Assembly (NCBI RefSeq): GCF_003687455.1
Contig: NZ_PHOA01000013.1
Coordinates: forward strand, 1-38,056
DNA length: 38,056 nucleotides
Direction: 5' to 3'
Source of the DNA: Kocuria tytonicola
GTDB taxonomy: Bacteria; Actinomycetota; Actinomycetes; Actinomycetales; Micrococcaceae
Notes under the pieces: generated by a model
The model's database searches: none
What the model was told of the DNA's origin: nothing
What the model saw: only the letters and a program-made list of their open reading frames with translations
Shown: in pieces, positions 5,510 to 38,055 of the stretch
Layout: every line of letters starts with the position of its first letter
Position numbering within the stretch: position 1 is the stretch's first letter
Made by a program: the position numbers and the translations under genes

Positions 5510-6913
5510 ATGTCCCACATCGTCAGCGGCCCCGAGGGCCCCGCCGGCCACGGCACCGCGGACCACACGCCGGGTGCTCCGGCGGTCCGCGCGCACGATC
5601 CCCGCAAGGCCCGCCGGGCGCTCATCGGCGCCTACGTGGGAACGTCCCTGGAGTGGTACGACTTCTTCCTGTTCGGCACCACCGCCTCCATCGTCTTCGC
5701 GCCGCTGTTCTTCGGCGGTGACGATCCCGTGCTCAGGACCATCCAGTCCTTCCTGCTCTTCGGCATCGGGTTCATCGCGCGTCCCATCGGCGCGCTGCTC
5801 GCCGGGCACTTCGGGGACCGGCTGGGCCGGCGCACCATCCTGATGGTCACCATCGTGGTCATGGGGGTGGCCTCCGCTCTGATCGGCGTGCTGCCCACGT
5901 ACGAGACGGCGGGCATCGTGGCGCCCGTCCTGCTGGCCGCGATGCGCTTCGTCCAGGGCATGGCCGCCGGGGGTGAGTGGGGCGGGGCCACCCTCATGGC
6001 CGTGGAGAACGCCCCCGAGGGCAAGCGCGGCTTCTACGGCGCGGTGGTGCAGCTGGGCTCTCCCACGGGCACCATCCTCTCCTCGATGATCGTCGCCGCG
6101 GTGGTGGCGCTGTCCGGGGAGAAGTTCCTGGAGGGCGCGTGGCGCATCCCGTACCTGCTCTCGATCCTGCTGGTGGTCGTGGGCGTCTGGATCCGGCTGC
6201 GCGTGGACGAGACGGACGACTACAAGGACGCCCAGGCCGCCCGCGCCGCCTCCTCCGAGAAGGAGGGCCTCCCGGTCCTGGAGATCCTCCGCACGGTCCC
6301 CGGGCGGCTCGCCATCGGCGTGGGCACGTACCTCTTCGGCAACGCCGGGTTCTTCGTGCTGACCACGTTCATGATCAGCTACGCCACCCAGCAGCTGGGT
6401 GTGCCCTCCACCGTGATCCTCACCGCGATCACGTGGGGCGCCGTGGCGGAGATCGTGACCATGACGATCGCGGGCAAGGTGGCGGACCGGACCTCCCCGT
6501 CCATCGTGGTGGTGGTGGGCTACGCGATTGCCGCGGTCCTGGCGTTCCCCATCTTCTGGCTCGTGGACACGCGCAGCACCGTGCTCATCACCGCAGCCAT
6601 GGTGCTGGGCATCGGCTTCGCCTCCATCCCCTACGCCCCCGTGGGCACCGTGCTGACCCAGCTCTTCCCCGTGAAGGTGCGCTACTCGGCCATTGCGCTG
6701 TGCGCCAACATCGCGGGCGTCGTGGCAGGGTTCATGCCCGCGCTCGCCGCATGGATCCTGGGGGTCACCGGTGGGACGTCCACCGGGCCCACCCTCCTGC
6801 TGCTGGCGCTCGCTCTGATCTCCCTGGCGTCGTCGATCGGCGCGCGTCGCGTGATCCGCCGGGACGAGGAGCAGAACGTGGACCAGATCTCGGGAGACCT
6901 GCTGAACCGGTGA
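5510..6913 (+). CDS. MFS transporter, metabolite:H+ symporter (MHS) family
   Basis: This 467-residue protein has about 12 hydrophobic segments and the MHS hallmarks: GTSLEWYDFFLFGTTA in helix 1, the loop GDRLGRRTILM between helices 2 and 3, and RFVQGMAAGGEWGGA followed by ENAPEGKRGFYGA. The family (ProP, ShiA, KgtP, citrate carriers) imports carboxylates or betaine-type osmolytes with protons. Substrate cannot be assigned. ATG 5510 follows AGAGG; the frame is open further upstream, but that part is not conserved-looking. Only 25 bp separate it from the amidohydrolase gene, and the SDR gene follows, so the three probably form one operon driven from the TTGACG/CATAGT promoter. This context suggests that it imports the substrate of the amidohydrolase. 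Confidence 0.92.
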   Translation: MSHIVSGPEGPAGHGTADHTPGAPAVRAHDPRKARRALIGAYVGTSLEWYDFFLFGTTASIVFAPLFFGGDDPVLRTIQSFLLFGIGFIARPIGALLAGHFGDRLGRRTILMVTIVVMGVASALIGVLPTYETAGIVAPVLLAAMRFVQGMAAGGEWGGATLMAVENAPEGKRGFYGAVVQLGSPTGTILSSMIVAAVVALSGEKFLEGAWRIPYLLSILLVVVGVWIRLRVDETDDYKDAQAARAASSEKEGLPVLEILRTVPGRLAIGVGTYLFGNAGFFVLTTFMISYATQQLGVPSTVILTAITWGAVAEIVTMTIAGKVADRTSPSIVVVVGYAIAAVLAFPIFWLVDTRSTVLITAAMVLGIGFASIPYAPVGTVLTQLFPVKVRYSAIALCANIAGVVAGFMPALAAWILGVTGGTSTGPTLLLLALALISLASSIGARRVIRRDEEQNVDQISGDLLNR

Positions 6914-6938
6914 CCCCGGTGGAGACGAGGAGCAACGC

Positions 6939-10264: not shown

Positions 10265-11215
10265 ATGGCCGGTCAGGGAGTCACGGGTCGCCACGCGGGT
10301 CTCACCATGACCCAGTGGCGGACCATCATCAATGCCTCCTTTGCGGCCGTGCGGATCACTGCGCCCGCGGAGAACGAGTTCCGTGCGGACCTCACCACGG
10401 TGGAACTGGACGACGTCCACCTCTTCGACATGACCACCGGCGCCCACCGCGTGCAGCGCACCCCGGAGCTCGTGGCCCGGGATTCGGGGGAGTACCTCAA
10501 GCTGAGCCTGCAGCTGGAGGGGGCAGCCCGGCTGCGCCAGGACGGGCGGGAGTGCGTGCTGCGCCCGGGAAGCCTGGGGCTCTATGCGGCGTACCGGCCG
10601 TACGAGCTGGTGTTCGACGGCCCCCAGCACAGCATGGTCATGACATTCCCCCGCTCGGTGGTGCAGCTGGTTCCCGCGCAGCTGGACACTGTCACGGCCC
10701 AGCGCATCAGCCAGGACGAGGGCCTGGGCCGCGTGGCCGTCCCTCTGTTCCGCAACCTCGCGCACAACATGGACGTGCTCCACGGGCCGCACGCCCGCAA
10801 ACTCGTGCGCTCGGCCCTGGACATGCTGGTCAGCGTGCTCTCCGCGGAGGTCCTGGACCCCGCACAGGAAGGCGCCGGGGACCTGCTCGTGCAGCAGGCC
10901 ACCGCGTACATCGCGGACCACCTGGCGGACCCGGAGCTCTCCCCGGGCTCGATCGCCCGCGCGCTCTACGTCTCGGTCCGGCAGCTGCACAGCCGTTTCG
11001 CCGCCCAGCACCTCACCGTGGTCGCCCACATCCGCGCCGTGCGCCTGGCCGCCATCCGCGCGGACCTCGCGGATCCGGCGCACCGCGCGGAGACCGTGCA
11101 CACCATCAGCGCCCGCCACGGCCTCGTGGACCCCGCCCACGTGAGCAAGAGCTTCAAGGCCGAGTTCGGGGAGACGCCCTCCGCCTACCGGCGCCGCCTC
11201 TTGGCGCAGTCCTGA
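10265..11215 (+). CDS. AraC family transcriptional regulator
   Basis: The 316-residue protein has an AraC_binding_2-type N-terminal domain (residues about 30-190; LKLSLQLEGAARLRQDGRECVLRPGSLGLYAAYRPYELVF) and a C-terminal double helix-turn-helix from about 215. The HTH has LSPGSIARALYVSVRQLHSRFA and, in the second HTH, ISARHGLVDPAHVSKSFKAEFGETPSAYRR. It is related to the FeaR/NphR-like group, which often controls aromatic or amine catabolic genes. I chose ATG 10265 because GGAGAGGGGG precedes it; GTG 10244 is an alternative seven codons upstream. A direct repeat with a 21-bp period lies 25 bp beyond its stop codon, in front of the aldehyde dehydrogenase gene, and is its most likely binding site. 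Confidence 0.9.
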   Translation: MAGQGVTGRHAGLTMTQWRTIINASFAAVRITAPAENEFRADLTTVELDDVHLFDMTTGAHRVQRTPELVARDSGEYLKLSLQLEGAARLRQDGRECVLRPGSLGLYAAYRPYELVFDGPQHSMVMTFPRSVVQLVPAQLDTVTAQRISQDEGLGRVAVPLFRNLAHNMDVLHGPHARKLVRSALDMLVSVLSAEVLDPAQEGAGDLLVQQATAYIADHLADPELSPGSIARALYVSVRQLHSRFAAQHLTVVAHIRAVRLAAIRADLADPAHRAETVHTISARHGLVDPAHVSKSFKAEFGETPSAYRRRLLAQS

Positions 11216-11239
11216 GCTCTCATCACACCACCCAGGTGG

Positions 11240-11271
11240 CGGGGTTGTCGCTCCGTGCATCGGGGTTGTCG
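11240..11271 (+). promoter_or_regulatory. Candidate AraC-type operator: 11-bp direct repeat, 21-bp period
   Basis: CGGGGTTGTCG occurs at 11240-11250 and again at 11261-11271. A spacing of 21 bp is two helical turns, the phasing typical of AraC-family half-sites. It lies between the AraC gene and the aldehyde dehydrogenase gene (start 11384). Confidence 0.55.
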
Positions 11272-11383
11272 TGGACTGCCGGTCACGTGTGAGATCGGCG
11301 CGCACCCGTGTGATTCCCGGCACAATGGGAGCAGTCGCCCGAGCGCGCCCGCGCCGGCCCCATCTACCCCACGAGGAGCCCCC

Positions 11384-12790
11384 GTGAACACCTGTCAGGA
11401 CCTGCTCTCGGCCATCACCGACCCGTCCGGCCGCGAGATCCTGGACCCCGCCACCGGCGAGGTGGTCGGCCGCGCCCACGAGTCCACCACCGCGGAGCTC
11501 GACGCCGCCGTGGCCGCCGCCCGTGCGGCCCAGCCGGACTGGGCGGGACTGGGTCACGCCAGGCGCTCCGAGTGCCTCCACAAGGCTGCGGACGCCGTGG
11601 AGGCGAACGCCGAGGCGCTCGCGGAGCTGCTCTCCCGCGAGCAGGGCAAGCCCGTGAAGAACGGTCCGAATGCAGCGTTCGAGGTGGGCGGCTGCGTGGC
11701 GTGGCTGCGGGCCAGCGCGGACTTCCCGCTGGAGCCCGAGGTGCTCGTGGACGACGAGTCCGGCCACGCCGAGATGCACTACGTCCCGCTCGGCGTCGTG
11801 GGGGCCATCGGGCCGTGGAACTGGCCCATGATGATCACCGTGTGGCAGGTGGCCTCGTCCCTGCGCATGGGCAACACCGTGGTGGTCAAGCCCTCCGAGT
11901 ACACCCCGCTGTCCGTGCTGGGCCTGGTGCACGTGCTCAACCAGGCGCTGCCCGCGGACGTCCTGCACGTGGTCCCCGGCGGCGGTGAGGTGGGCAAGGC
12001 CCTGTCCTCCCACGAGGGCGTGGACAAGATCATGTTCACGGGCTCCACCAGGACCGGTCAGGCCATCATGCGATCCGCAGCGGACGGTCTGGCGCGCCTC
12101 ACCCTGGAGCTCGGCGGCAACGACGCCGGCGTGGTCCTCCCGGACGTGGACCCCCGGGCGATCGCCGGTGACCTCTTCTGGGGCGCCTTCATCAACACCG
12201 GCCAGACGTGCGCCGCCCTCAAGCGGCTGTACGTCCACGAGGACGTGTACGACGCCGTGTGCGAGGCGCTCGTGGACGTGGCGCGCCAGATGCCCATGGG
12301 CAACGGGCGCGAGGAGCAGAACGTGCTCGGCCCGCTGCAGAACAGGCAGCAGTACGACATCGTGGCGGGTCTGGTGGAGGACGCCAGGAACGGCGGCGGC
12401 CGGGTGCTGATCGGCGGGGACCCGCAGGAGGACCAGCCCGGGTACTTCTACCCCACCACGCTCGTGGCGGACCTGCCCAACGACAACCCCCTGGTCACGC
12501 AGGAGCAGTTCGGCCCGGCCCTGCCCATCGTGAAGTACTCGGACGTGGAGGACGCCATGGCCATGGCCAACGGCCTGGACGTGGGGCTCGGCGCCTCGGT
12601 GTGGAGCTCCGACACCGAGAAGGCAATGGCGGTGGCCCAGCGGCTGGAGGCCGGCACCGTGTGGATCAACAAGCACGGCGGCGTGGACCCCCGCATCCCG
12701 TTCGGCGGCATCAAGAAGTCCGGCTTCGGCCTGGAGTTCGGTGTCGAGGGGCTCAAGTCCGTGGCGGCCAGCAAGGTCATCTCCCGCTGA
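11384..12790 (+). CDS. NAD(P)-dependent aldehyde dehydrogenase
   Basis: A complete ALDH superfamily member of 468 residues: cofactor-site GPWNWP with N146, K169 in VVVKPSEYTP, FTGSTRTGQ (219-225), general base E242 in LELGGND, and nucleophile C276 in NTGQTCAALKR. The C-terminus has the IPFGGIKKSGFG motif. It oxidises an aldehyde to the acid; the ELGGND variant does not fix the substrate. GTG 11384 is chosen because ACGAGGAGC precedes it; the frame is open upstream to 11255, but that covers the regulatory repeat. Two GC-rich hairpins follow the stop. The AraC gene upstream is its probable regulator. Confidence 0.93.
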   Translation: MNTCQDLLSAITDPSGREILDPATGEVVGRAHESTTAELDAAVAAARAAQPDWAGLGHARRSECLHKAADAVEANAEALAELLSREQGKPVKNGPNAAFEVGGCVAWLRASADFPLEPEVLVDDESGHAEMHYVPLGVVGAIGPWNWPMMITVWQVASSLRMGNTVVVKPSEYTPLSVLGLVHVLNQALPADVLHVVPGGGEVGKALSSHEGVDKIMFTGSTRTGQAIMRSAADGLARLTLELGGNDAGVVLPDVDPRAIAGDLFWGAFINTGQTCAALKRLYVHEDVYDAVCEALVDVARQMPMGNGREEQNVLGPLQNRQQYDIVAGLVEDARNGGGRVLIGGDPQEDQPGYFYPTTLVADLPNDNPLVTQEQFGPALPIVKYSDVEDAMAMANGLDVGLGASVWSSDTEKAMAVAQRLEAGTVWINKHGGVDPRIPFGGIKKSGFGLEFGVEGLKSVAASKVISR

Positions 12791-12818
12791 GCCTGCTCCA
12801 CCGTGCACGACGGCGTGG

Positions 12819-12894
12819 GCGCCCCGGACAGCTCCGACGGTCCGGGGCGCGCGCACGTGATGGTGCCCGGACGGGGTCGTCGTCGTTTCCGGGC
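12819..12894 (+). terminator. Tandem hairpins after the aldehyde dehydrogenase gene
   Basis: Hairpin one has perfect 11-nt arms at 12819-12829 and 12840-12850 (10-nt loop). Hairpin two has 7-nt arms GCCCGGA (12865-12871) and TCCGGGC (12888-12894). Both lack T-tracts, which is common in high-GC actinobacteria. Confidence 0.6.
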
Positions 12895-13018
12895 GCGGCC
12901 GAGGAAGGGGGCGGGCGCGGCGTCGCCGGAGGCCGTCAGGAACTTTCCGCGGGAATGGTGTGGCAGGGATAGGTGTTGCACAACCGACATGGCAACCGAT
13001 CTCGCCGGAGGGAACCGC

Positions 13019-14101
13019 ATGCCCACCCTGTACGACCCCATCACCGTAGGAGCCTTCGAGCTCAGGAACCGCGTGGCCATGGCGCCGCTCACCCGGATGC
13101 GCTCCGACGAGGACGGCGTGCCCAAGGACATGAACGTGGAGTACTACGCGCAGCGTGCGTCCGTGGGCCTGCTCGTCACCGAGGGCACGTCCCCCGCCGT
13201 GACGAGCCGCGGGTTCTGGGGCCAGGCCGGGATCGAGACCGCCGAGCAGGCCCTGGGCTGGTCCCGCGTGGCGGAGGCCGTGCACGAGAAGGGCGGCGTG
13301 GTGTTCATGCAGGTCATGAACGCCGGTCGCGTGTCCCATCCCGAGCTCACGGGCGGGTCCACCCCTGAGGCCCCGAGTGCCGTGGGCGTCGACCAGAGCA
13401 CCCACGTGCCCAGCGGCAAGCGGCCCATCCCCGTTCCCCGCGCGCTCGAGGCCGACGAGCTCCCCCGGATCCGGCAGGAGTTCGTCTCCGCCGCCCGCCG
13501 CGCCGTGGACGCCGGGATCGACGGCGTGGAGATCCACGGCGCGAACGGCTACCTGCTCCACGAGTTCCTGGCCCCCTCCGCCAACCACCGCACGGACGAG
13601 TACGGCGGCTCCCCGGAGAACCGGGCGCGCTTCGTCGTGGAGGTGGTGCGCGCCGTCGCCCAGGAGATCGGGGCGGAGCGTGTGGGCCTGCGGATCTCGC
13701 CGGAGCACAACGTGCAGGGCGCCGTCGAGGACGACCACGACGATGTCCGCGCCACCTACGCCGCGCTGTTCTCCGGCCTGCGGGACCTGGGACTGGCGTA
13801 CCTGTCCGTGCTGCACAGGGACATCGACGGGGAGTTCGTGCAGGAGCTGCGCGGCCAGTTCGACGGCGCGTTCTACCTCAACAGCGGCTTCAGCGAGTAC
13901 ACCGAGCTGGCCGAGTCCGAGCACATCATGGCGGCTGACCTGGCGGACGGTGTGATGGTCGGGCGTGAGCTGGTCGCCAACCCGGACCTGGTGCAGCGCT
14001 GGCGGGACGGTCTGGAACTGAACACGCCGGACCCCAAGACCTTCTACCTGGGCGGCCCGAAGGGGTACGTGGACTACCCGTTCGCCACGGAGCGGATCTG
14101 A
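13019..14101 (+). CDS. Old Yellow Enzyme family NADH:flavin oxidoreductase
   Basis: The 360-residue FMN TIM-barrel protein opens MPTLYDPITVGAFELRNRVAMAPLTR. It has the substrate-anchoring H173-x-x-N176 and proton-donor Y178 in EIHGANGYLLHEF, then PSANHRTDEYGGSPENR and the phosphate-binding MVGRELVANPDLV. It should reduce activated C=C bonds (alkene reductase), in the plant/bacterial OPR-like branch. The segment usually written QLWH-x-GR reads QVMNAGRVSHPE (98-109), so the usual Trp and His are Met and Asn. CGGAGGGAA precedes ATG 13019. The gene is separated from the ALDH gene by two hairpins and probably has its own promoter. Confidence 0.92.
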   Translation: MPTLYDPITVGAFELRNRVAMAPLTRMRSDEDGVPKDMNVEYYAQRASVGLLVTEGTSPAVTSRGFWGQAGIETAEQALGWSRVAEAVHEKGGVVFMQVMNAGRVSHPELTGGSTPEAPSAVGVDQSTHVPSGKRPIPVPRALEADELPRIRQEFVSAARRAVDAGIDGVEIHGANGYLLHEFLAPSANHRTDEYGGSPENRARFVVEVVRAVAQEIGAERVGLRISPEHNVQGAVEDDHDDVRATYAALFSGLRDLGLAYLSVLHRDIDGEFVQELRGQFDGAFYLNSGFSEYTELAESEHIMAADLADGVMVGRELVANPDLVQRWRDGLELNTPDPKTFYLGGPKGYVDYPFATERI

Positions 14102-14108
14102 GCCCAAG

Positions 14109-14148
14109 CCGCGTGCCTCGTGCGAGCTGATGAGGACGCGGCACGCGG
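14109..14148 (+). terminator. GC-rich hairpin after the Old Yellow Enzyme gene
   Basis: Perfect 9-nt arms CCGCGTGCC (14109-14117) and GGCACGCGG (14140-14148) directly follow the stop codon. No T-tract is present. Confidence 0.5.
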
Positions 14149-14166
14149 GGCCTCTGGCCGGCTGGG

Positions 14167-14195
14167 TTGACTCCGGGAAGTGGAGGCAGTAGGTT
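14167..14195 (+). promoter_or_regulatory. Sigma70-type promoter of the cold-shock gene
   Basis: TTGACT (14167-14172), a 17-bp spacer and TAGGTT (14190-14195) form a good consensus promoter. The predicted start near 14202 leaves a leader of about 150 nt before the cold-shock ATG. Confidence 0.6.
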
Positions 14196-14201
14196 GAATA
14201 T

Positions 14202-14352
14202 CAGTTGTTGAAGTTTCGTTTTGTATTTTAAGCAGTACCCACCAACCATGGTGCGGCGGTTTTTTTGAAGAAACGTTCATGGCAAGCATCGCAACGCCGA
14301 GCCCCCGAAATTCGGGATGTGCTCACTTTCTTGCAGAAAAGGCAGGTCTGAC
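14202..14352 (+). promoter_or_regulatory. Long AT-rich 5' leader of the cold-shock gene
   Basis: This stretch is conspicuously AT-rich for the window. It holds a small hairpin (CACCA 14240-14244 with TGGTG 14249-14253) followed after six bases by seven Ts (14260-14266), which looks like an early terminator or pause site. A second palindrome, CCCGAA-A-TTCGGG, lies at 14304-14316. The ribosome site is AAGGCAGG, 7-8 bases before ATG. Long structured leaders are known to control cspA-type mRNAs by temperature; that this one does so is inference. Confidence 0.5.
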
Positions 14353-14559
14353 ATGACTACTGGCACCGTCAAATGGTTCAACGCTGACAAGGGCTTCGGC
14401 TTCATCGCCCCCGAGGACGGCTCTGACGACGTCTTCGCCCACTTCTCCGGCATCAACTCCGGCGGCTTCCGCTCGCTCAACGAGGGCGACAAGGTGGAGT
14501 TCGAGGTGCAGCAGGGCGATCGCGGCCTGCAGGCCACGAACATCTCGGTGATCTCCTGA
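14353..14559 (+). CDS. Cold-shock protein, CspA family
   Basis: A 68-residue single cold-shock domain: [18 protein letters not shown] carries RNP1 (KGFGFI) and [10 protein letters not shown] carries RNP2. Length and the aromatic surface residues are typical of CspA-type RNA chaperones that bind single-stranded RNA and melt secondary structure. The segment DDVFAHFS and the C-terminal NISVIS are usual for actinobacterial members. It is monocistronic: its own promoter and ~150-nt leader are upstream and a 26-bp terminator stem is downstream. Constitutive versus cold-induced expression cannot be read from sequence. Confidence 0.96.
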
Positions 14560-14588
14560 TCATCATTTCCTGAACGGCGAGCAGCCGT

Positions 14589-14644
14589 CGGAAAACCACG
14601 AAGACGCCCTGCCGTTATCGGCAGGGCGTCTTCGTGGTTTTCCG
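14589..14644. terminator. Bidirectional intrinsic terminator with 26-bp perfect stem
   Basis: The arms at 14589-14614 and 14619-14644 are perfectly complementary around a four-base loop. Each strand ends with a GG-TTTT run, so it can terminate transcription of the cold-shock gene (+) and of the GMC gene (-), whose stop codon lies 4 bp away. Confidence 0.9.
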
Positions 14645-14647
14645 GGA

Positions 14648-16252
14648 TCACCCGCCCAGCAGCATCCGCGCCCCCTTCTCCCCGATCATGGCGGAGGGGG
14701 CATTGGTGTTGCCGTTGGTGATGAACGGCATCACGGAGGCGTCCACCACCCGCACGCCCGCCATGCCGTGCACCTGCAGGGTGGCGGGGTGCACCACGGC
14801 CAGCTCGTCCGTTCCCATGCGGCACGTGCCCACCTGGTGGTGGTAGGTGGTCACGGCCCGGTCCATGTAGGCGTCCTCGGCCGCCTCGTCCATCTCGCCC
14901 TCACCGGGGTAGATCTCCCGGGCACCCCACTCATCCGCCAGGGGCGGGGCCGCAACCATGGCACGCCCCTGCCGCAGGGAGACCCGCAGCGCCTCCCGGT
15001 CCCGGGGGTCCGAGAAGATGTTGGGGTCGTAGTTCGCCGGGTCCGTGCTGCTCGGCCCGGTCAGGGTGATCCGGCCCCGCGAGTACGGGCGGGTGAGGCC
15101 CGTGTGCAGCGTGAACGCGTTGGCCGGGCCCTGCATCCAGTCGTCGTACATGGGAACGCAGAAGTGGAGGGGCTGGGTGTCCGGGCGGTCCTGGTCCGCG
15201 GAGGAACGCCAGAACAGGTGGGTCTGGGTCACGGCGATCTCGTCCTCCGGGTGCTCGATGGGCCGGGCCGTGGCCTCCGCGATCACCGGCACCAGGAGGT
15301 GGTCGTGCAGGTTCTCCCCCACGCCGGGCAGGTCCAGCACCGGTTCGATCCCCACCTCCCGCAGGTGCTCCGCCGGGCCGATCCCCGAGCGCATGAGGAT
15401 CTTGGGGCTGTCGAGTGCCCCGGCACACAGCACCACCTCGTCCGCGGAGATCACCTCGCCCCCGTTGTCCTGACCCGCCGTGGGCTCGGAGGCGTCCACG
15501 CCCTCCACCTCGGCGATCGCCCCGGCGTGCAGCTGCACCCCGGTCACTCGGCCGTCCGCCACCATGAGGCGCTCCACCACGGCACCCGTGCGCACCTCGA
15601 TGGCGCCGCGCGCCACCCACGGCTTCGCGTGGGACGTGTACGTGGTCACCCTCCTGGTGCCCCGCACCGTGAGCTGCTCCTGGGAGATGCCCTCCTGCGG
15701 CCCCGCGTTGTAGTCCTCGTTGAACGGCACCCCCACGGCCTCGGCCGCCGCGATGATCGCGTCGAAGATCGGGCTGCGCTGGTAGCTGCCCACCACGGGA
15801 ACGAGACCGTCGGTGCCGCGGGGTGCCGCGGCGTCGTCGTCCTTGGTGGGGCCCTCGTAGGCCTCCAGTGCCTCGAACACCGGGGCGACGTCGCTCCACG
15901 CCCAGCCGTCGCAGCCCGCCGCCGCCCAGTCGTCGTAGTCGAGCGGGTTGCCGCGCACCCAGATGGCGGCGTTGAGGGCGTGGGAGCCGCCCAGCACCCG
16001 CCCCCGCGGCCAGTGGATGACCCGGCCGGACGCGTGCTCCTGGGCCACGGTGAAGTAGTCCCAGTCCTCCCGTCCGTGCCACAGCTCGCCCATGCGGGAG
16101 AGGGAGGCGATGGCCGGATTGGTGTCCTCCCCACCGGCTTCCAGGAGGGTGACGCGGTGCCCGGCCTCCGCCAGACGCCCGGCAACGATGGATCCTGCGG
16201 TTCCTGCGCCCACCACCACGATGTGGCGGGGGGCCTGTGCTGTGCTGGTCAT
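14648..16252 (-). CDS. GMC family oxidoreductase (choline dehydrogenase-like flavoprotein)
   Basis: The 534-residue protein has the FAD Rossmann motif [10 protein letters not shown] (12-21), the first GMC signature region [18 protein letters not shown] (84-101), the second signature [18 protein letters not shown], and the C-terminal active-site pieces [11 protein letters not shown] (His base) and [16 protein letters not shown] (Asn partner). It should oxidise an alcohol with FAD; choline, glucose-type and other alcohols are all possible. ATG 16252 gives the normal start just before the FAD fold, although its GGGAG is very close. Upstream the frame stays open but is low-complexity. A loop at about 137-146 ([10 protein letters not shown]) is encoded by an exact copy of the 11-mer described in the findings. 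Confidence 0.9.
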
Positions 16253-19318: not shown

Positions 19319-19458
19319 GCGGGCGGCGTCGTCCTCCGGGCAGGCGTGGCCCGGAGCCCGGCTGAGATGGCCTCCCCGTTCTGCGGGCCGTGGCCGCCGA
19401 GGGAACGGCTGAGACCTCCCGCACAGGAAGGTGCACACAGTGCAAGTACTGCCGTACG

Positions 19459-20133
19459 ATGAGCACCATGACCGCCCAGCTGATTCCCTCGTGCCGCACC
19501 AGGGCCACGGGTGAACCCGCGGACAAGCGTGAGGTCATCCGGCTGCGCAACAGGCGGTCCATCATCACGGCGGCGGGTGAGCTCGCCACGGAGCGGGGCA
19601 TCGCGGGAGTGGGCGTCAACGATCTCGCCGCGCGGGCGGGCGTCTCCCGCCGCACCATCTTCAACCACTTCCCATCCGCGCAGGACGCCGTCTTCGAGTA
19701 CCTCTCGGGCCAGGTCACGGGCTTGATCGACCGCATGCTGCGGGAGCTTCCGGCGCCGGACCCGGGTGCGGGCACCGAGCTGGGGGACGTGTACCGGCAG
19801 CTGATGGAGGCCCTGCGCACCCCCACGCTGCTGGACGAGCTGCAGCCCGTGTTCTCCGTGGACCGCCAGGACACCCCGGCGGCATCCCTGTGGGAGTTCC
19901 GGGTGACCCGCACAGCGGTGGACCGCCTGGCGGACGTGCTGCGGGAGCGGCTGCCGCAGTACACGCCGTTCCAGATCCACCTGGTGGCCACCACGCTCAT
20001 CAACTCCCTGGTCGAGTGCCTCGACGAGTGGCTCGCCCGGACGGACGGTGCCCTGGACGAGGCCGCCCGGCGCACCTGGAGCGAGCTGCTGGCCACTGCG
20101 CTGGCCGTGCTGGGGCGAGGCTTCGATGCGTGA
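19459..20133 (+). CDS. TetR family transcriptional regulator
   Basis: The HTH lies at about residues 28-72 (NRRSIITAAGELATERGIAGVGVNDLAARAGVSRRTIFNHFPSAQDAV), a standard TetR motif. The C-terminal ligand domain is of no subfamily I can name. Two starts are close: ATG 19459 and ATG 19468. TACGAT at 19455-19460 looks like a -10 box, which would make ATG 19468 leaderless and the protein 221 residues; I give the longer form. Around the promoter are TGCA/GTAC-type half-sites (GTGCA 19431-19435, GTGCA 19440-19444, GTAC 19446-19449, GTAC 19454-19457) that could be its own operator. The MMPL-esterase gene follows 138 bp later and is its probable target. An exact 11-mer GCGGCGTCGTC follows the stop codon. 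Confidence 0.85.
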   Translation: MSTMTAQLIPSCRTRATGEPADKREVIRLRNRRSIITAAGELATERGIAGVGVNDLAARAGVSRRTIFNHFPSAQDAVFEYLSGQVTGLIDRMLRELPAPDPGAGTELGDVYRQLMEALRTPTLLDELQPVFSVDRQDTPAASLWEFRVTRTAVDRLADVLRERLPQYTPFQIHLVATTLINSLVECLDEWLARTDGALDEAARRTWSELLATALAVLGRGFDA

Positions 20134-20197: not shown

Positions 20198-20271
20198 CCC
20201 ACCACTGACTTCACCGGCCGCCGTGCGCGGCCCACACAGCACGATTTTCCCGATTCGCTAGGAGAACTTCC

Positions 20272-23200
20272 GTGGCACGACTTCTGTACCGGCTGGGCAA
20301 GGGCGCAGCCGCTCACGCGTGGGCGGTGATTCTGGTGTGGGCCGCCGTCCTGGCGCTGGCCGTGGGCGGGGTGGCCCTGTCCGGGGTGCACCTGAGCAAC
20401 GCCATCACCATTCCCGGCACCGAGACCCAGAACCTCGCGGACCGGCTCAAGGCGGAGATGCCCGAGGCCAACCAGGGAACCGGCCGCGTGGTGTTCTCCA
20501 CGCAGGACGGCTCCGAGTTCACGCAGGCCCAGAAGGACGGCATCGCCGAGGCCCTGAAGCGGGTGGACGGGGTGGACGGTGTGGACTCCACCGTGAACCC
20601 GTTCGAGCGCCAGCAGCAGCTGGACGACGGCCGCCAGAAGCTCAAGGACGGCCGCGCGCAGCTGGACCAGGGCGAGCAGCGGATCGCCCAGCTCAAGAAG
20701 AGCCTCCCGCCGGGGGTCAGTGCCGAGCAGGTGCTCAAGCAGCGCGGCATGGACCCGGCCCAGATCGAGAAGCAGAAGGCGCAGCTCGAGGAGGGGGAGA
20801 AGACCTACGACCGCATGGGCGACTACCGTGTGGTCTCCAAGGACGACAACTCCGCGATCAGCGTGGTCACGTTCACGGTGGAGCAGAACGCCGTGGAGGC
20901 GGACACCAAGACCGAGGTCATGGACGCCGTGCGCAACCACCCCGTGAAGGGCGTGGACGCCGAGTTCTCCCAGGAGATCGCCCAGGACATCTCCTCACTG
21001 GTGGGCCCGGCGGAGATCATCGGCGTGGTGATCGCGGCCATCGTCCTGCTGCTCATGCTGCGCGCCGTGGTCCCGGCCGTCCTGCCCGTGCTGACCGCCC
21101 TGCTGGGGGTGGCCGTGGCGGCGTCCGCCACGCTGGCGTTCTCCGGCGTGATCGACATGATGTCCGTGACCCCCATGCTCGGTGTGATGCTGGGGCTGGC
21201 CGTGGGCATCGACTACTCGTTGTTCGTGCTCAACCGGCACCGCCAGCAGCTGCGCACGGGCATGTCCGTGCGGGAGTCCATCGGGATGGCCGTGGGCACC
21301 TCCGGCACCGCGGTCTTCTTCGCGGCGCTCACGGTGATCGTGGCGCTGGTGGCACTCAACGTCGCGGGCATCCCGTTCCTGGGGCTGATGGGCACGGCCG
21401 GCGGTCTGGCCGTGGCCGTGGCACTGCTCATGACCCTCACCCTCACTCCCGCCCTGCTCTCTCTCGCGGGCAAGCGGGTGCTCCCGAAGAAGGCGCGCAC
21501 CGCGGCACCGCGTGAGGACCAGATCGACCCGCACGACGTGCCGCTGCACCTGCGGCACCCCTGGATCACCACGCTCGCGTGCGTGGCCGTGCTGGTCGTC
21601 CTGGCGCTGCCCGCCCAGAGCATGCGTCTGGGGCTGCCGGACGCCTCCACCGAGGCGCAGGACAGTACCCAGTACAAGGCCTACCAGCGCATCGCGGAGG
21701 ACTTCGGTGCGGGGGAGAACGGCCCCATCGCCGTGGTCGTGGATCTCCCGGAGGGCCTCTCGGAGGCGCAGGCCAAGGACAAGATGGACGCGGTGGCGGA
21801 CCGGCTCGCGGACCAGGAGGACGTGGCGAACGTCCTGCAGGGCAGCACCACGGACGACCGCACCACCGGAGTGATCCAGGTGATTCCTTCGTCCGGCCCG
21901 GCGGAGGCGGCCACCGAGGAGCTCGTGGGCAGCATCCGCGGTCTCAACGACGGTCTGGAGAAGGACGAGGACGTTCACGTGGGCGTGGCCGGGACCACGG
22001 CCGCGAACATCGACGTGTCCCAGCTGCTCGGTGAGAAGCTGCCCCTCTACCTGGGGGTCGTGCTCGTCATCTCGCTGGTGCTGCTGCTCATGGTGTTCCG
22101 CTCCATCCTGGTCCCGGTGATCGCCACGGTGGGCTTCCTGCTCTCCGTCCTGGCGTCCTTCGGTGCCGTGGTGGCGGTCTACCAGTGGGGCTGGGGCGGC
22201 GCGCTGTTCGGCGTGCACGATCCCGGGCCCATCCTGAGCTTCCTGCCCACCCTGATGGTCGGCATCCTCTTCGGCCTGGCCATGGACTACCAGCTCTTCC
22301 TGGTCTCCGGCATGCGTGAAGCATACGTTCACGGGCATGCGCCCCGTCAGGCCGTGGTGTACGGCTTCAAGGCGGGCCGTTCGGTGGTCACCGCCGCGGC
22401 AATCATCATGATCTCGGTGTTCGCGGGCTTCATCTTCGCGGACCTCGCCATGATCCGGCCCATCGGCTTCGCCCTCGCGGGCGGCGTGCTCCTGGACGCC
22501 TTCGTGGTGCGCATGCTGCTGATCCCCGCGGTCATGCGGCTGCTCGGGGACAAGGCCTGGTGGATCCCGCGCTGGCTGGACCGCATCCTGCCGCGCGTTG
22601 ACGTGGAGGGTGAGTCCCTCGCCCGCGAGGGCGCCGCCGCCGGTGCCGTCTCCGGTGCCACCGAGCAGGACGACGACGCCGCACGCCGCGCCCGCGCGCG
22701 GGGTCGCCACCGCGCGGAGACCGCCCACCGCCACCGGGCTGCCGGCCAGCGTGCTTCTGATCGCTCTGCCACCGAGCAGGGTGTTCCTCACCGGGGCGCC
22801 CAGGGTTCGGCCACCGAGGGAGTCGAGGACTCGACCGGCGCGCTGGATGAGGCCGCGGGGTCGGGACGTGAGGGGACACCTCGCGCGGCAGAGCGCGCAA
22901 CCGGTCCGGCGGGCGCCGCGGGAGCCGGTGCCACGGCAGCAGCGGCGCTCGGCACGGCGGCTCAGGGTGCAGCGCACCCCGCGCCGGAGAAGGAGACGGG
23001 CGCCCCCCGTTCCGGGACCACCGGCACGCCGGCTGCGGCCCACGCGGCCCGCCACACGGCGTCGTCCCCGGAGCACGAGGAGGGCGCGGTGCCCACCGAG
23101 AGCGATCGGGTCCGTGCCCTGCGCCACGGCCGTCACGCGGCGGCGTCGGCGGACCACGCCGTGGCCGCCGTGGACGTGACCCTCGTGCCCGCGGATGCCG

Positions 23201-24123
23201 CCCTGCGGCTGACCAACCAGGGGCTGCGGGTGCTGCCCAACGTGTGGGAGTCCGAGGACAAGCTGCTCGCCTCCCTGGCCGCCGAGGACCGTGAGGAGGC
23301 CGCGCCGCACCGGGGCATGCACAAGCGTGCGGAGTTCCGGAAGGTCATGGTGGCGGGGTACCCGGTGGTCGTCGCGCGTCCGAAGGCGGCGCTCGCCCGT
23401 ACGGACGCGCCCGTGGTGATCCACTGGCACGGCGGCGCGTACGTGCACCCCGTGACCACCACGCACTGGCGGTGGATCGACGCCCTGATCCAGCGCACGG
23501 GTGCCACGGTGCTCGTGCCGGGCTACGGTCTCGCCCCGGACCACACGGTGGACGAGGCACTCGTGCTGGCCGACGGCGTGTGGGACCTGGCGCGCACGCT
23601 GGGCACCCGGGTGCTCGTCTCCGGCGACTCCGCGGGTGGCGGTCTGGCGGTGGCCCAGGCCATGCGGCTGCGCGACGCCGCGGCATCGCCCGCCCGGGAG
23701 ACGCACCCGGGGGCGGCACCGTCCGTCCCGGCGACGCCCGAGGGCCTGATCCTGATCTCCCCGTGGGTGGACGTGACCGTGAGCAACCCCGAGATCGAGG
23801 AGTACCGGGACGTGGACCACATGCTGGACACCGAGGGCCCCCGGGCCGCGGGCCGCTGGTGGGCGGGCACCCGTGAGGTGACCGACCCCGTGGTCAGCCC
23901 CGCGTTCGGGGACGTGCACGGGCTGCCGCGCACGTTCGTGCTGCAGGGGGACCGGGACATGCTCTACCCGGACACCATGGAGTTCGTCACGGACCTCGTG
24001 CGTGCCGGTGTGGACACCACCACGGTGGTGTGTGAGGGTGGCCCGCACGTGTACGCGCTGATGGTCTGGTCCGACCGCGCCACCGAGGACCTGGACCGGG
24101 TGGTGCGCTGGATGGGTCACTGA
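20272..24123 (+). CDS. MMPL/RND family transporter fused to a C-terminal HSL-type alpha/beta hydrolase
   Basis: One uninterrupted frame of 1283 codons encodes three parts. Residues 1 to about 785 form a full MMPL exporter: a first helix, a periplasmic loop with a Gln/Lys-rich coiled-coil stretch (about 110-185), helices 2-6, a second loop, and helices 8-12. The paired proton-relay motifs are GID314Y315SLF and AMD672Y673QLF. About 790-1000 is a low-complexity Ala/Gly/Arg/His linker. From about 1005 to the end is an esterase of the hormone-sensitive lipase family: oxyanion motif H1053-GGAY, nucleophile elbow GD-S1120-AGGG, Asp1229 in GDRDMLYPD and His1259 in GGPHVYAL. All four catalytic elements are intact. 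MMPL proteins export lipids or hydrophobic compounds; by their topology the esterase should face the cytosol. GTG 20272 follows TAGGAGAA. A TetR gene precedes it and a palindromic terminator follows. Confidence 0.9.
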   Translation: MARLLYRLGKGAAAHAWAVILVWAAVLALAVGGVALSGVHLSNAITIPGTETQNLADRLKAEMPEANQGTGRVVFSTQDGSEFTQAQKDGIAEALKRVDGVDGVDSTVNPFERQQQLDDGRQKLKDGRAQLDQGEQRIAQLKKSLPPGVSAEQVLKQRGMDPAQIEKQKAQLEEGEKTYDRMGDYRVVSKDDNSAISVVTFTVEQNAVEADTKTEVMDAVRNHPVKGVDAEFSQEIAQDISSLVGPAEIIGVVIAAIVLLLMLRAVVPAVLPVLTALLGVAVAASATLAFSGVIDMMSVTPMLGVMLGLAVGIDYSLFVLNRHRQQLRTGMSVRESIGMAVGTSGTAVFFAALTVIVALVALNVAGIPFLGLMGTAGGLAVAVALLMTLTLTPALLSLAGKRVLPKKARTAAPREDQIDPHDVPLHLRHPWITTLACVAVLVVLALPAQSMRLGLPDASTEAQDSTQYKAYQRIAEDFGAGENGPIAVVVDLPEGLSEAQAKDKMDAVADRLADQEDVANVLQGSTTDDRTTGVIQVIPSSGPAEAATEELVGSIRGLNDGLEKDEDVHVGVAGTTAANIDVSQLLGEKLPLYLGVVLVISLVLLLMVFRSILVPVIATVGFLLSVLASFGAVVAVYQWGWGGALFGVHDPGPILSFLPTLMVGILFGLAMDYQLFLVSGMREAYVHGHAPRQAVVYGFKAGRSVVTAAAIIMISVFAGFIFADLAMIRPIGFALAGGVLLDAFVVRMLLIPAVMRLLGDKAWWIPRWLDRILPRVDVEGESLAREGAAAGAVSGATEQDDDAARRARARGRHRAETAHRHRAAGQRASDRSATEQGVPHRGAQGSATEGVEDSTGALDEAAGSGREGTPRAAERATGPAGAAGAGATAAAALGTAAQGAAHPAPEKETGAPRSGTTGTPAAAHAARHTASSPEHEEGAVPTESDRVRALRHGRHAAASADHAVAAVDVTLVPADAALRLTNQGLRVLPNVWESEDKLLASLAAEDREEAAPHRGMHKRAEFRKVMVAGYPVVVARPKAALARTDAPVVIHWHGGAYVHPVTTTHWRWIDALIQRTGATVLVPGYGLAPDHTVDEALVLADGVWDLARTLGTRVLVSGDSAGGGLAVAQAMRLRDAAASPARETHPGAAPSVPATPEGLILISPWVDVTVSNPEIEEYRDVDHMLDTEGPRAAGRWWAGTREVTDPVVSPAFGDVHGLPRTFVLQGDRDMLYPDTMEFVTDLVRAGVDTTTVVCEGGPHVYALMVWSDRATEDLDRVVRWMGH

Positions 24124-34310: not shown

Positions 34311-36197
34311 TCAGCCCTTGCGGAGGAACCTCCCGAAGAACTCCGCGAGCTCGGCGGTGGCGTCCAGGGGCAGCACGGCGGCCACGTAGTGGTCCGGGCG
34401 GACCACCACCACGGCGCCGTCGCGGCTGATCTTCCGGAGGTCGAAGATGTCCTCACCGGGGATCGCGGCGTAGACGCGCTCCCAGTAGTTCAGTTCGAGC
34501 GGGCCCACCCGGGGCTTGAACGCGCGTGGGACGGCATTGATGTCCACCTGGTCGTAGGGCTGCTGGTAGGTGACGTCCACGTCGAAGAGCGTGGCCTCAC
34601 CCTCGCCCTCGCGGCGGTAGGCCACCAGCGGGGACGCGGGGTCGTTCTGCAGCCACTCGGCGAACGCCGCGGTGGGGGAGTTCGCCCCGGCCACGGCGGA
34701 GTCCGCGTACACGTGGATGCGCCAGCGCCCGTCCGCGGTGGCCTCGTGGCCCTGGTGGACCACCATGGCGTCGCACACGCGCTGGACCCGGGCGGACTTG
34801 AAGCGCTTGCCCACGGGCCAGCCCTGCGCGAGGTCCTGGTGCTCGGTGTCGGCGACGATCAGCGAGGGCTGGTACTCGGTCATGAATCCCGCGGGGAACT
34901 CGGCCGTCTTGACGTAGAACTCCTCCAGGTACTTGGGGTCCGGGAGCTTGTCCTGCGGGGTGGCCATGAGCGTGGACCACTCGCGGTCGAAGTCGATCAG
35001 GTTCTTGGCGATCACCTGGCGCTCCTCCGAGTAGGTGTCCAGGAGGGACGCGTCCGCCCGCCCGGAGAGCACCGCGCCGAGCTTCCAGCCCAGGTTCCAG
35101 CCGTCCTGCATGGACACGTTCATGCCCTGCCCGGCCTTCGCGGAGTGGGTGTGGCACGCGTCCCCGGCAATGAACACCCGGGGGCAGCGGGTGCCGCGGT
35201 CCTCAGTGTCCACGTCGTCGAAGTGGTCCGTGAGGCGGTGTCCCACCTCGTACACGGAGGACCACGCCACGGACTTCACGTCCACGGAGTACGGGTGGAT
35301 GATCTGGTTGGCCCGCCGGATCACCTCCTCGATGGGGGTCTTGCGGATCTCGTGGTTGTCGTCCTCCGGCACCTCGCCCAGGTCCACGTACATGCGGAAC
35401 AGCAGCCCGCCCTCGCGGGGGATGTGCAGGATGGAGCCGTGCACGGAGTTGATCGCGCACTTGGTGCGGATGTCCGGGAAGTCGGTGTTGGCCAGCACGT
35501 CCATGACGCCCCACGCGTGGTTCGCACCCTGGCCCTCGAGCCTGCGCCCGATCGACTTGCGCACGCGGGACGCGGCGCCGTCGCACCCGAAGACGTACTT
35601 GGCGCGCACGGTGCGCTCCTCGCCCTCGCGGGGGCCGGCCACGTGGCGGACGGTCACGGCCACGGGGTGCTCGTGCTCCTGGTCGATCTCCAGGCCCACG
35701 AACTCGATGCCGTAGTCCGGCTCGATCCTCCCCGGGCCCCGCTTGGCGGAGCGCAGGAAGTAGTCCATCACGCGGGCCTGGTTCACGATCATGTGCGGGA
35801 ACTCGGAGACCCCGTGGGGGTCGTCCGCGGGGCGCCCGGTGCGCACGATGTTCTGCGGGTTCGTGGGGTCCGGGTTCCAGAAGCACATCTCGCGCAGCAT
35901 GAAGGCTTCCTGGATGATCTCCTGCGCGAAGCCGAAGGACTGGAAGGTCTCCACGCTGCGTGCCTGGATGCCGTCCGCCTGACCGATCTCCAGGCGCCCG
36001 GGGCGCCGCTCGATCAGCCGCGTGCTCACCTCCGGGTACTGGGAGAGCTGCGCGGCGGCGATCACGCCGGCCGGGCCGGACCCCACGATGAGCACGTCCA
36101 TGGTGTCCGGGAGCTCCTGGGCGCGGTCCACGCCGTACCCGCGGGCCTCCTCGATCCGGGGGTCCTCGGAGACGTATCCGTTCTGATGAAAGAGCAT
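34311..36197 (-). CDS. FAD-dependent aromatic monooxygenase (MobA-like, 3-hydroxybenzoate 4-hydroxylase or phenol hydroxylase group)
   Basis: The 628-residue class A flavoprotein hydroxylase has the FAD motif VLIVGSGPAG (35-44), the ELGQADGI-type region LEIGQADGIQARSVETFQSFG, KYVFGCDGAASRVRKSIG (DG motif), RVFIAGDACHTHSAKAGQGMN (GD motif), and a C-terminal thioredoxin-like dimerisation domain (from about 445; AQGWPVGKRFKSARVQRVCDA). Across its length it matches my memory of Comamonas MobA, including LVVVRPDHYVAAVLPL near the end. It should hydroxylate a phenolic ring using NAD(P)H and O2; exact substrate is inference. AGGAGAAGG precedes ATG 36197. It is divergent from the FAH-RraA gene, and both carry the same 13-bp repeat at their -10 boxes. 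Confidence 0.88.
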   Translation of the reverse strand: MLFHQNGYVSEDPRIEEARGYGVDRAQELPDTMDVLIVGSGPAGVIAAAQLSQYPEVSTRLIERRPGRLEIGQADGIQARSVETFQSFGFAQEIIQEAFMLREMCFWNPDPTNPQNIVRTGRPADDPHGVSEFPHMIVNQARVMDYFLRSAKRGPGRIEPDYGIEFVGLEIDQEHEHPVAVTVRHVAGPREGEERTVRAKYVFGCDGAASRVRKSIGRRLEGQGANHAWGVMDVLANTDFPDIRTKCAINSVHGSILHIPREGGLLFRMYVDLGEVPEDDNHEIRKTPIEEVIRRANQIIHPYSVDVKSVAWSSVYEVGHRLTDHFDDVDTEDRGTRCPRVFIAGDACHTHSAKAGQGMNVSMQDGWNLGWKLGAVLSGRADASLLDTYSEERQVIAKNLIDFDREWSTLMATPQDKLPDPKYLEEFYVKTAEFPAGFMTEYQPSLIVADTEHQDLAQGWPVGKRFKSARVQRVCDAMVVHQGHEATADGRWRIHVYADSAVAGANSPTAAFAEWLQNDPASPLVAYRREGEGEATLFDVDVTYQQPYDQVDINAVPRAFKPRVGPLELNYWERVYAAIPGEDIFDLRKISRDGAVVVVRPDHYVAAVLPLDATAELAEFFGRFLRKG

Positions 36198-36300
36198 GCC
36201 TTCTCCTGCGTTCTGCGGTGGTGTGGGCCGAGGGCCCGTCCCGGGCGGAGCCACGGTGCCCGCTGCCCGGTGGATCGGTGGAGTCCACGTCTGTTGCCTG

Positions 36301-36313
36301 GATCATATACGAT
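36301..36313. promoter_or_regulatory. 13-bp operator-like repeat on the hydroxylase -10 box
   Basis: GATCATATACGAT; its complement contains TATGAT (36302-36307), the likely -10 of the hydroxylase gene, with TGTTAC (complement of 36325-36330) 17 bp upstream. It differs by one base from the repeat at 36471. Confidence 0.6.
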
Positions 36314-36454
36314 GTGTGGCCCACGTAACAGGGGGCGTTGCCCGCATGGCGACGCCGCCCGGCCCAGCCTCGCTCGGGCCATTCCCGCCCCGGATTTCCG
36401 GACCTCGGGAGACAGCTCACGGCTTTCCGGGGAGAATGGTGTGACGTGAACCAC

Positions 36455-36483
36455 TTGCCCGCCCCGGCAGGATAATATACGAT
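36455..36483 (+). promoter_or_regulatory. Promoter of the FAH-RraA gene overlapped by the same repeat
   Basis: TTGCCC (36455-36460), 17 bp, TACGAT (36478-36483). The last 13 bases of this region (GATAATATACGAT, 36471-36483) repeat the element at 36301 in the same orientation. The 325-bp gap between the two genes holds nothing else I can identify. Confidence 0.6.
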
Positions 36484-36522
36484 TTCGAATAACATTCTGC
36501 CGACCACGAGGAGGCGGTCCCG

Positions 36523-38055
36523 GTGACCGAGAACCCCCAGAACGCCCAGAGCACCCTCGGCGGGACCCACGGTGCGCAGCCGGTCCCCGTGCGGCCCGGC
36601 AAGATCATCGCGGTGCACGTGGCCTACGAGTCCCGTGCCGCGCAGCGCGGCCGCAAGCCCGCCGTGCCCTCCTACTTCCTCAAGCCCGCGAGCTCCCTGG
36701 CGGGTTCGGGTGCCGCCGTGGAGCGCCCCGCCGGCACCGAGCTGCTGGCCTTCGAGGGGGAGATCGCCCTGGTGGTCGGCACGCCCGCCCGCAACGTCTC
36801 CCTCGAGGACGCCTGGGACCACGTGGCGGCCGTGACGGCCTCCAACGACTGGGGCCTCTACGACCTGCGCGCCGCGGACAAGGGCTCCAACCTGCGCAAC
36901 AAGGGCCGGGACGGCTACACCTCCCTGGGTCCCTCGCTCCTCGACGCCCGCGAGGTCTCCCCGGAGCAGCTGCGGGTGCGCACGTGGCTCAACGGGGAGC
37001 TGGTGCAGGAGGACACCACCGCACCCGAGAACATGATCTTCCCCCTGGCCCAGTTCGTGGCGGACCTCTCCCAGCACGTGACGCTGGAGGAGGGGGACGT
37101 GATCCTCACCGGAACCCCCGCGGGCTCCTCCGTGGCCCGGCCCGGGGACGTCGTGGAGGTGGAGGTCGATGCGCCGTCGGCCCCCGGAGCGCCGTCGTCC
37201 GGTCGCCTGGTGAGCCGCGTGACCGAGGGGACCGAGCCGTTCGACGAGGGCCTGGGAGCCATGCCCGCCGTGGACGACACCCAGCGCGAAGAGGCGTGGG
37301 GGTCCCGCGCGGCCGCCGGTCTGCCCGAGCAGGGCGCCGCGCACGCGCTGAGCCCGCAGCTGCGCGCGAAGCTCGAGAAGGCCCCCACCGCGGGACTCTC
37401 CGCCCAGCTGCGCAAGCGCGGGCTGAACAACGTGGTGGTGGCGGACGTCTTCCCGCAGACCCCCGGCAGCAAGCTCGTGGGCCCCGCCAAGACGCTGCGC
37501 TTCGTGCCCAACCGCGAGGATCTCTTCACGACCCACGGCGGGGGCTACAACGCCCAGAAGCGCGCGTTCGACGCCGTGGGCGAGGGTGAGGTGATCGTGA
37601 TCGAGGCCCGCGGGGAGACCGGTTCCGCGACCCTCGGTGACGTCCTCGCGCTGCGCGCCCGCCACAACGGTGCGGCCGGCGTGGTCACGGACGGCGGCGT
37701 GCGCGACTACGCCGCGGTGCAGGAGATCGGGCTGCCCGTGTTCTGCAAGGGCCCCAACCCCGCGGTGCTCGGCCGGCGCCACGTGCCGTGGGAGTCGGAC
37801 GTGGCCGTGGCCTGCGGCAACGTCACCGTGCTCCCGGGTGACGTGGTCGTGGGGGACGACGACGGCGTCGTCGTGATCCCGCGCGCGCTCGCCGAGGAGG
37901 TGGCCCAGGACGCCCTGGCCAAGGAGCACGAGGACGGCTGGGTGGCCGAGCGTGTGGCCGAGGGCCACCCGGTGGACGGGTTGTTCCCGCCCACCGGGCA
38001 GTGGAAGGAGAAGTTCCAGCAGTGGCTGTCCGAGAACCCTCTGCCCTCCGAGTGA
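36523..38055 (+). CDS. Fumarylacetoacetate hydrolase (FAH) domain fused to RraA/HMG-CHA-aldolase-like domain
   Basis: The 510-residue protein has two catalytic domains. The FAH domain (about 25-245) shows FEGEIALVVG (metal Glu pair), ASNDWGLYDLRAADKGSN, KGRDGYTSLGPS and FPLAQFVADLSQHVTLEEGDVILTGTPAGS. The RraA-like domain (about 280-475) carries TAGLSAQLRKRGLNN, GPAKTLRF and D-x20-R-D (GDVLALRARHNG...TDGGVRDYA), the class II HMG/CHA aldolase signature. FAH-type proteins hydrolyse, hydrate or decarboxylate ring-cleavage products; RraA-type aldolases split or decarboxylate oxaloacetate-like or 4-hydroxy-2-oxo acids. Together they could do two late steps of an aromatic meta-cleavage route (homoprotocatechuate-like). 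GAGGAGGCGG precedes GTG 36523. The stop is one base from the window edge, so an operon probably continues. Confidence 0.87.
   Translation: MTENPQNAQSTLGGTHGAQPVPVRPGKIIAVHVAYESRAAQRGRKPAVPSYFLKPASSLAGSGAAVERPAGTELLAFEGEIALVVGTPARNVSLEDAWDHVAAVTASNDWGLYDLRAADKGSNLRNKGRDGYTSLGPSLLDAREVSPEQLRVRTWLNGELVQEDTTAPENMIFPLAQFVADLSQHVTLEEGDVILTGTPAGSSVARPGDVVEVEVDAPSAPGAPSSGRLVSRVTEGTEPFDEGLGAMPAVDDTQREEAWGSRAAAGLPEQGAAHALSPQLRAKLEKAPTAGLSAQLRKRGLNNVVVADVFPQTPGSKLVGPAKTLRFVPNREDLFTTHGGGYNAQKRAFDAVGEGEVIVIEARGETGSATLGDVLALRARHNGAAGVVTDGGVRDYAAVQEIGLPVFCKGPNPAVLGRRHVPWESDVAVACGNVTVLPGDVVVGDDDGVVVIPRALAEEVAQDALAKEHEDGWVAERVAEGHPVDGLFPPTGQWKEKFQQWLSENPLPSE

Follow-up and report, generated by a model that had tools for sequence, protein, structure and literature searches.

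We analysed a 38,056-nucleotide stretch of DNA from Kocuria tytonicola (contig NZ_PHOA01000013.1, hereafter the window), which comes from a draft genome of 2.6 Mb in 239 contigs, and concentrated on one plus-strand gene at 20272-24123 that joins an exporter of the MMPL/RND family to an HSL-type esterase. Open-frame analysis found 1283 codons uninterrupted by any stop. This confirmed the single MMPL-esterase frame proposed in a preliminary description made from the sequence, and both PF03176 and PF07859 were matched within it. The features of the gene are as follows.

20272-24123, plus strand: fusion gene, 1283 amino acids, GTG start, TGA stop.
20260-20264, plus strand: Shine-Dalgarno-like AGGAG ahead of the fusion start.
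20272-22611, plus strand: MMPL/RND exporter part, residues 1-780, ending in VDVEG; matches PF03176 and MmpL3 in the PDB.
21211-21213, plus strand: Asp314 of the first GxDY proton-relay motif (AVGIDYSLF), an invariant alignment column.
22285-22287, plus strand: Asp672 of the second (AMDY) motif (GLAMDYQLF), an invariant alignment column.
22612-23169, plus strand: linker, residues 781-966, rich in Ala, Gly, Arg, Glu and His, varying in length and sequence among relatives.
23170-24120, plus strand: HSL-type alpha/beta-hydrolase (esterase) domain, residues 967-1283; matches PF07859 and Est8.
23428-23436, plus strand: HGG oxyanion-hole motif (HGGAY, residue 1053), from the alignment.
23629-23631, plus strand: catalytic Ser1120 (GDSAGG at 1118), from the alignment.
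23956-23958, plus strand: catalytic acid Asp1229, assigned by alignment.
24046-24048, plus strand: catalytic His1259, assigned by alignment.

The AGGAG sequence and the VARLLYRLG start were kept in all eight compared loci, the window's included, which supports the start assigned to the fusion. A mirror frame of 1041 codons lies on the opposite strand (20995-24120). Since this frame had no Pfam match at E 0.1, and since the codon-position score favoured the plus frame over it, we took it to be a by-product of high G+C content.

The exporter part matched PF03176 at 1.3e-88 (297.5 bits against a gathering cut-off of 20.5) in two stretches corresponding to both repeats, and its best match in the PDB was MmpL3 (7nvh, 1.2e-47). 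Relay aspartates of MMPL exporters sit in transmembrane helices 4 and 10, one in each membrane half, and the D314 and D672 columns were invariant in 28 aligned MMPL sequences, seven of them fusions. This invariance suggests that the pump has been kept working. The hydropathy profile of the window protein fits 12 helices only if two helices are assigned to each of two long peaks. The protein thus resembles MmpL3 and other MMPL-type RND exporters in family profile, relay aspartates and a possible 12-helix layout, but it scored 200.4 bits on the MmpL3 equivalog NF052608 against a cut-off of 1400, which places it in a different subfamily, and what should be its cytosolic tail is an enzyme.

That enzyme matched PF07859 (Abhydrolase_3) at 3.1e-34 (119 bits against a gathering cut-off of 25), as did the esterase parts of all seven intact fusions that were aligned. 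The HGG motif and the catalytic triad were likewise invariant in these seven sequences, with no sign of a degenerate triad, and all of the residues and motifs named in the preliminary description (D314, D672, HGGAY, GDSAGG, Asp1229, His1259) were found as claimed. The acid column holds Asp in the seven fusions and Glu in the four solved structures shown. The closest solved HSL-type esterase is Est8 (6y9k, 6.9e-29 with a profile), which has the HGG, GDSAGG, acid and His elements in common with the window's domain; solved relatives are mostly standalone chains of about 300-350 amino acids, whereas the window's enzyme follows a pump in the same chain. The NCBIfam HSL equivalogs scored below their curated cut-offs (LipY 88.9 of 450 bits, LipP1 62.4 of 350, chloramphenicol hydrolase 41.9 of 500). 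All seven fused esterases matched the profile of the steryl acetyl hydrolase Say1 (PF10340, best 3.8e-11), but as a control the six standalone relatives tested matched it too, and Abhydrolase_3 scored far higher for the fused esterases. The PF10340 match is therefore no specific sign, and sterol specificity of the Say1 kind was rejected.

The linker lies between the two domains, as first described, though it measures about 186 residues (781-966) and not the roughly 210 given at the time. Its length ranges from 72 to 200 residues among the seven aligned intact fusions. Beyond residue 780, the 19-residue Kyte-Doolittle means of these proteins never rose above 1.45, and with no hydrophobic segment in this region the linker and esterase look soluble. 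Taken together with the general topology of MMPL proteins, this makes both look cytosolic, which agrees with the earlier proposal of a cytosolic esterase. The motif GRHRA occurs in the linker of five of the seven fusions, and a second motif, GRHA, closer to the esterase, in four; both are absent from K. carniphila and Kocuria sp. cx-455.

If the fusion were a local sequencing error, then close relatives should all carry two separate genes. We examined two overlapping samples, one of 51 loci related to the window and one of 27 Kocuria genomes. The esterase lay in the MMPL frame at six of the 51 loci (K. rhizophila TA68, two K. marina, K. tytonis, K. carniphila and Kocuria sp. cx-455), and two further loci reached contig ends (K. 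atrinae, L010, and a Kocuria metagenome-assembled genome, L012). The remaining 43 loci gave no esterase match in frames of at least 80 amino acids, within DNA fetched up to 6 kb on each side. Eight of the 27 genomes, the window's own included, encode esterase and MMPL in one intact frame of 1164-1321 amino acids, and one of these eight assemblies consists of one contig (2,697,540 bases). A local sequencing error or false fusion was rejected on this count. An MMPL match at E 2.6e-115 or better was present in all 27 genomes. Among the 19 without an intact fusion, contig ends interrupt the region in two (G001 and G007); the other 17 showed no fusion, their esterase matches (E 0.001) lying away from the MMPL match or being absent. 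In G007, which corresponds to L012, the contig runs out at residue 573 of the MMPL, and no close esterase was found in that genome (best 1.5e-5). The architecture is real, is kept in eight genomes and is confined to one Kocuria clade as far as the search extended.

Both gene trees fit a single origin of the fusion in that clade. In the MMPL tree, the seven fused and two cut rows formed one clade (100/100), adjoined by the unfused K. coralli; in the esterase tree, the eight fused rows and the G001 fragment formed one clade (100/100). The count of two label changes in the esterase tree arises because the G001 fragment was scored as standalone. This tree assigned the fused esterases no clear sister. 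A free-standing relative, 38-42% identical, occurs in eight other Kocuria genomes, and no relative of that likeness stands free in the fused genomes of the 27-genome sample; weaker hydrolase relatives (33% or less identical) are present in fused and unfused genomes alike. By our reading, the standalone proteins begin at about the same point as the fused domain, so a whole esterase gene was probably appended to the exporter.

Over six species pairs, the ratio of nonsynonymous to synonymous substitution rates (dN/dS, NG86 method) spans 0.08-0.26 in the MMPL part, 0.06-0.50 in the esterase and 0.29-0.96 in the linker. Purifying selection acts on both domains and much more weakly on the linker. 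Between the two subclades of fusions, the esterase parts are 54-56% identical and the MMPL parts 77%.

No second MMPL-esterase fusion was found among the matches checked in the wider order and phylum samples; these results cover the matches listed, which in two of the sets were those at E 1e-30 or better. Four long esterase frames in the order sample (L122-L125) were without an MMPL domain. The 24 MMPL frames of at least 1080 amino acids among the matches listed, the window's aside, carry 3' tails of 5-82 amino acids with no esterase, and among the listed esterase matches at E 1e-30 or better no frame but the window's fits both domains, the longest other measuring 965 amino acids. A candidate from Arsenicicoccus piscis (L031, 6001-9522) was rejected as a further fusion because its extra length is an insert and not a C-terminal domain. 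The insert is a very long coiled-coil-like repeat of Q, K, L, A and G that precedes the first GxDY motif. We also note that an MMPL locus in a record labelled Vibrio cholerae (L029) is 96% identical over 6.1 kb to that of Arthrobacter sp. B1805 (L028), and the record is probably a mislabelled or contaminated assembly. Excerpts from the open-licence PMC literature did not describe such a fusion or this Kocuria gene; subscription journals and database annotation may differ.

Directly upstream of the fusion lie a regulator gene and a candidate operator.

19459-20133, plus strand: TetR-family regulator (PF00440, 2.6e-11), with an uncertain start, ATG 19459 or ATG 19468.
19432-19444, no strand assigned: palindrome TGCAC-ACA-GTGCA, a probable TetR operator, adjoining a TACGAT box at 19455-19460.

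A TetR gene was found upstream of the MMPL gene by blastp (1e-8) in 23 of the 51 loci, including all eight other Kocuria loci of the clade. The palindrome was surveyed in 46 loci, the other five being left out as their MMPL start was not covered. In 22 of these, an exact TGCAC-N3-GTGCA stands upstream of the MMPL start at a distance of 1.3 kb or less. The 22 include all eight other clade loci (L005-L012) as well as loci of Rothia, Arthrobacter, Cellulomonas and Arsenicicoccus, and four carry the palindrome in tandem, the copies spaced 17-18 bases apart. The window holds one exact copy, and five matches at one mismatch against 2.1 expected. Across its own genome the motif had eight matches against 27 for the reversed control. 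It is not enriched, a genome-wide regulon was rejected, and the argument for the palindrome therefore rests on its conserved position. Exact palindromes also turned up at loci of standalone esterases; at the two inspected (L088, L067) they fall inside the esterase frame, and these matches were taken as coincidence. In the window the palindrome is followed closely by the TACGAT box and the candidate start codons of TetR, a place where a self-regulating TetR protein would be expected to bind. Synteny and the conserved palindrome thus lend support to the TetR control that had been suggested for the fusion. Since Rothia, Arthrobacter and Cellulomonas have TetR and palindrome next to MMPL genes that lack the esterase, both seem to predate the fusion.

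Farther upstream, the window carries genes for an AraC-type regulator, an aldehyde dehydrogenase, an FMN oxidoreductase and a GMC oxidoreductase (10307-16171), which together look like an alcohol/aldehyde oxidation cluster. We compared its aldehyde dehydrogenase (11384-12787) and GMC oxidoreductase (14648-16171) with the surroundings of the standalone esterases. At two of the eight Kocuria standalone-esterase loci, the genes close by include a GMC oxidoreductase (62%) and an aldehyde dehydrogenase whose identity to that of the window is 76% and 75.5%; a third locus has a partial GMC gene (64%). These neighbours hint at ester-alcohol catabolism for the ancestors of the enzyme, or at chance; the latter is suggested by the cx-455 fusion locus, where no such GMC gene was found within the stretches covered (L011, L096). 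The far end of the window (34314-38052) encodes an FAD monooxygenase of the phenol-hydroxylase type as well as a two-domain FAA hydrolase/RraA-like protein, which suggests a part in breaking down aromatic compounds.

Our preferred reading, which we put forward tentatively from comparative sequence evidence, is that an old TetR-controlled MMPL exporter of amphiphiles gained an HSL esterase once and may now act as a ligand-induced hydrolyse-then-pump system for an amphiphilic ester. An amphiphile entering the cell would cause TetR to let go of the promoter, the tethered esterase would hydrolyse an ester, fatty-acyl or short-acyl, on the inner side of the membrane, and the proton-driven pump would expel the product, for example a free fatty acid or a deacylated amphiphile. 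Fusion would fix the stoichiometry of enzyme and pump and bring the esterase to the membrane, and an esterase at the cytosolic tail could widen the cargo range to esters. The roles first suggested for the fusion, in which the ester would be deacylated or its acyl group transferred shortly before export, or an esterified compound would be detoxified, are likewise conjectural. Because the TetR-palindrome-MMPL module occurs elsewhere without the esterase, the pump should have a cargo of its own. A more demanding form, in which a TetR-induced MMPL and a tethered serine esterase or acyltransferase would make up a one-chain process-and-pump machine in bacteria without mycolates, modification of the cargo being an obligatory step of export, is possible but should be held more loosely. 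To our knowledge, Kocuria has no mycolates.

Two known systems come close to parts of this proposal. FarE, an MmpL-type pump of Staphylococcus aureus, is not known to carry an esterase domain. According to the excerpts available from PMC10019231 and PMC12671165, FarE and the TetR-family regulator FarR provide inducible resistance to linoleic acid, and the pump lies beside its regulator as in the window. In the Corynebacterineae, TmaT and CmpL tie ester chemistry to MmpL-type transport, as proposed here: an excerpt of PMC8698533 describes acetylation by TmaT as promoting the transport of trehalose corynomycolate in Corynebacterium glutamicum. That system differs in its separate acetyltransferase, its mycolate substrate and a deacetylase placed in the periplasm (PMC8698533, in part). 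Yeast offers a further precedent for a link between ester chemistry and export: in cells lacking the sterol deacetylase Say1, cholesterol is acetylated and cholesteryl acetate is secreted, as stated in an excerpt of PMC8857485.

Several observations weigh against the hydrolyse-then-pump reading. The fact that all fusions fall in one clade points to shared descent and not to selection having favoured the fusion repeatedly. Operon precedent is scarce: the DNA fetched around the 43 unfused MMPL loci, up to 6 kb on each side, gave no match to the esterase. The nearest operon-like case, in a same-family genome (G166, L132), has a standalone esterase relative (6018-6935, minus strand) and, about 4 kb away on the opposite strand, a TetR-MMPL pair (MMPL frame from 10846, plus strand); two-component-system-like frames lie between pair and esterase. 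The K. atrinae L010 sequence changes frame within the linker and reaches a stop six bases short of the contig end, the only stop found in the linker of a relative; in G001, taken by similarity for the same species, the esterase lies on a separate contig beside the contig end, split over two overlapping frames. The K. atrinae copy may be broken, or the contig ends may be poor. An internal start with a Shine-Dalgarno-like run precedes the esterase in two of the seven fusions (the window and K. rhizophila TA68), though at differing places, so that it is not conserved. MMPL pumps are mostly thought to load cargo from the membrane, and a cytosolic enzyme therefore need not feed the pump. Finally, excerpts of PMC10019231 describe FarR and FarE as divergently transcribed, whereas the TetR and MMPL genes of the window are co-directional (both plus strand), and state that FarE is not expressed without FarR.

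The principal alternative, drawn by analogy, is maturation of an envelope lipid: the pump would export an acylated lipid or pigment made by the cell itself, and removal of an acyl or acetyl group by the esterase would act as the gate for transport, the reverse of TmaT. The closest solved pumps are indeed MmpL3 (1.2e-47), and an MMPL match in all 27 Kocuria genomes is what a housekeeping exporter might show, yet a TetR gene with an operator-like site suggests inducible use, and the apparent absence of mycolates from Kocuria also tells against it. The promotion of corynomycolate transport by acetylation lends it some support, but the C. glutamicum deacetylase is placed in the periplasm (PMC8698533, in part) and the window's esterase should be cytosolic. 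On balance we regard this alternative as unlikely. Slightly more doubtful still is a role of the MMPL part as mere membrane anchor and shared promoter, the two domains acting on unrelated or parallel substrates in ester catabolism or xenobiotic hydrolysis. The long, loosely constrained linker would permit this, and aldehyde dehydrogenase and GMC genes near two of the eight standalone relatives, with a partial GMC gene near a third, suggest ester-alcohol catabolism; a soluble esterase has no need of a 12-helix anchor, however, both relay aspartates are invariant across the 28 sequences, and the fusion persists although the MMPL parts have diverged to 77% identity. An accident, in which stop-codon loss joined two genes without new function or the assembly is in error, is largely refuted and highly improbable: the single origin, the esterase being less conserved than the MMPL between subclades and the breaks in K. 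atrinae L010 and G001 would suit it, but eight assemblies hold the intact fusion, one in a single contig, the esterase dN/dS is 0.06-0.50, the triad is intact in all seven aligned fusions, and the K. atrinae breaks sit at contig ends of draft assemblies.

We know of few cargoes for MMPL exporters outside mycolate-making bacteria. In a natural fusion the partner enzyme is given by the gene itself, and so it may offer a chemical clue, an ester, to what such a pump carries. Kocuria rhizophila, one of the species with the fusion, is in common laboratory use. Since other Micrococcales carry the TetR-palindrome-MMPL module with no esterase attached, a cargo found for the Kocuria fusion would inform the wider exporter family.

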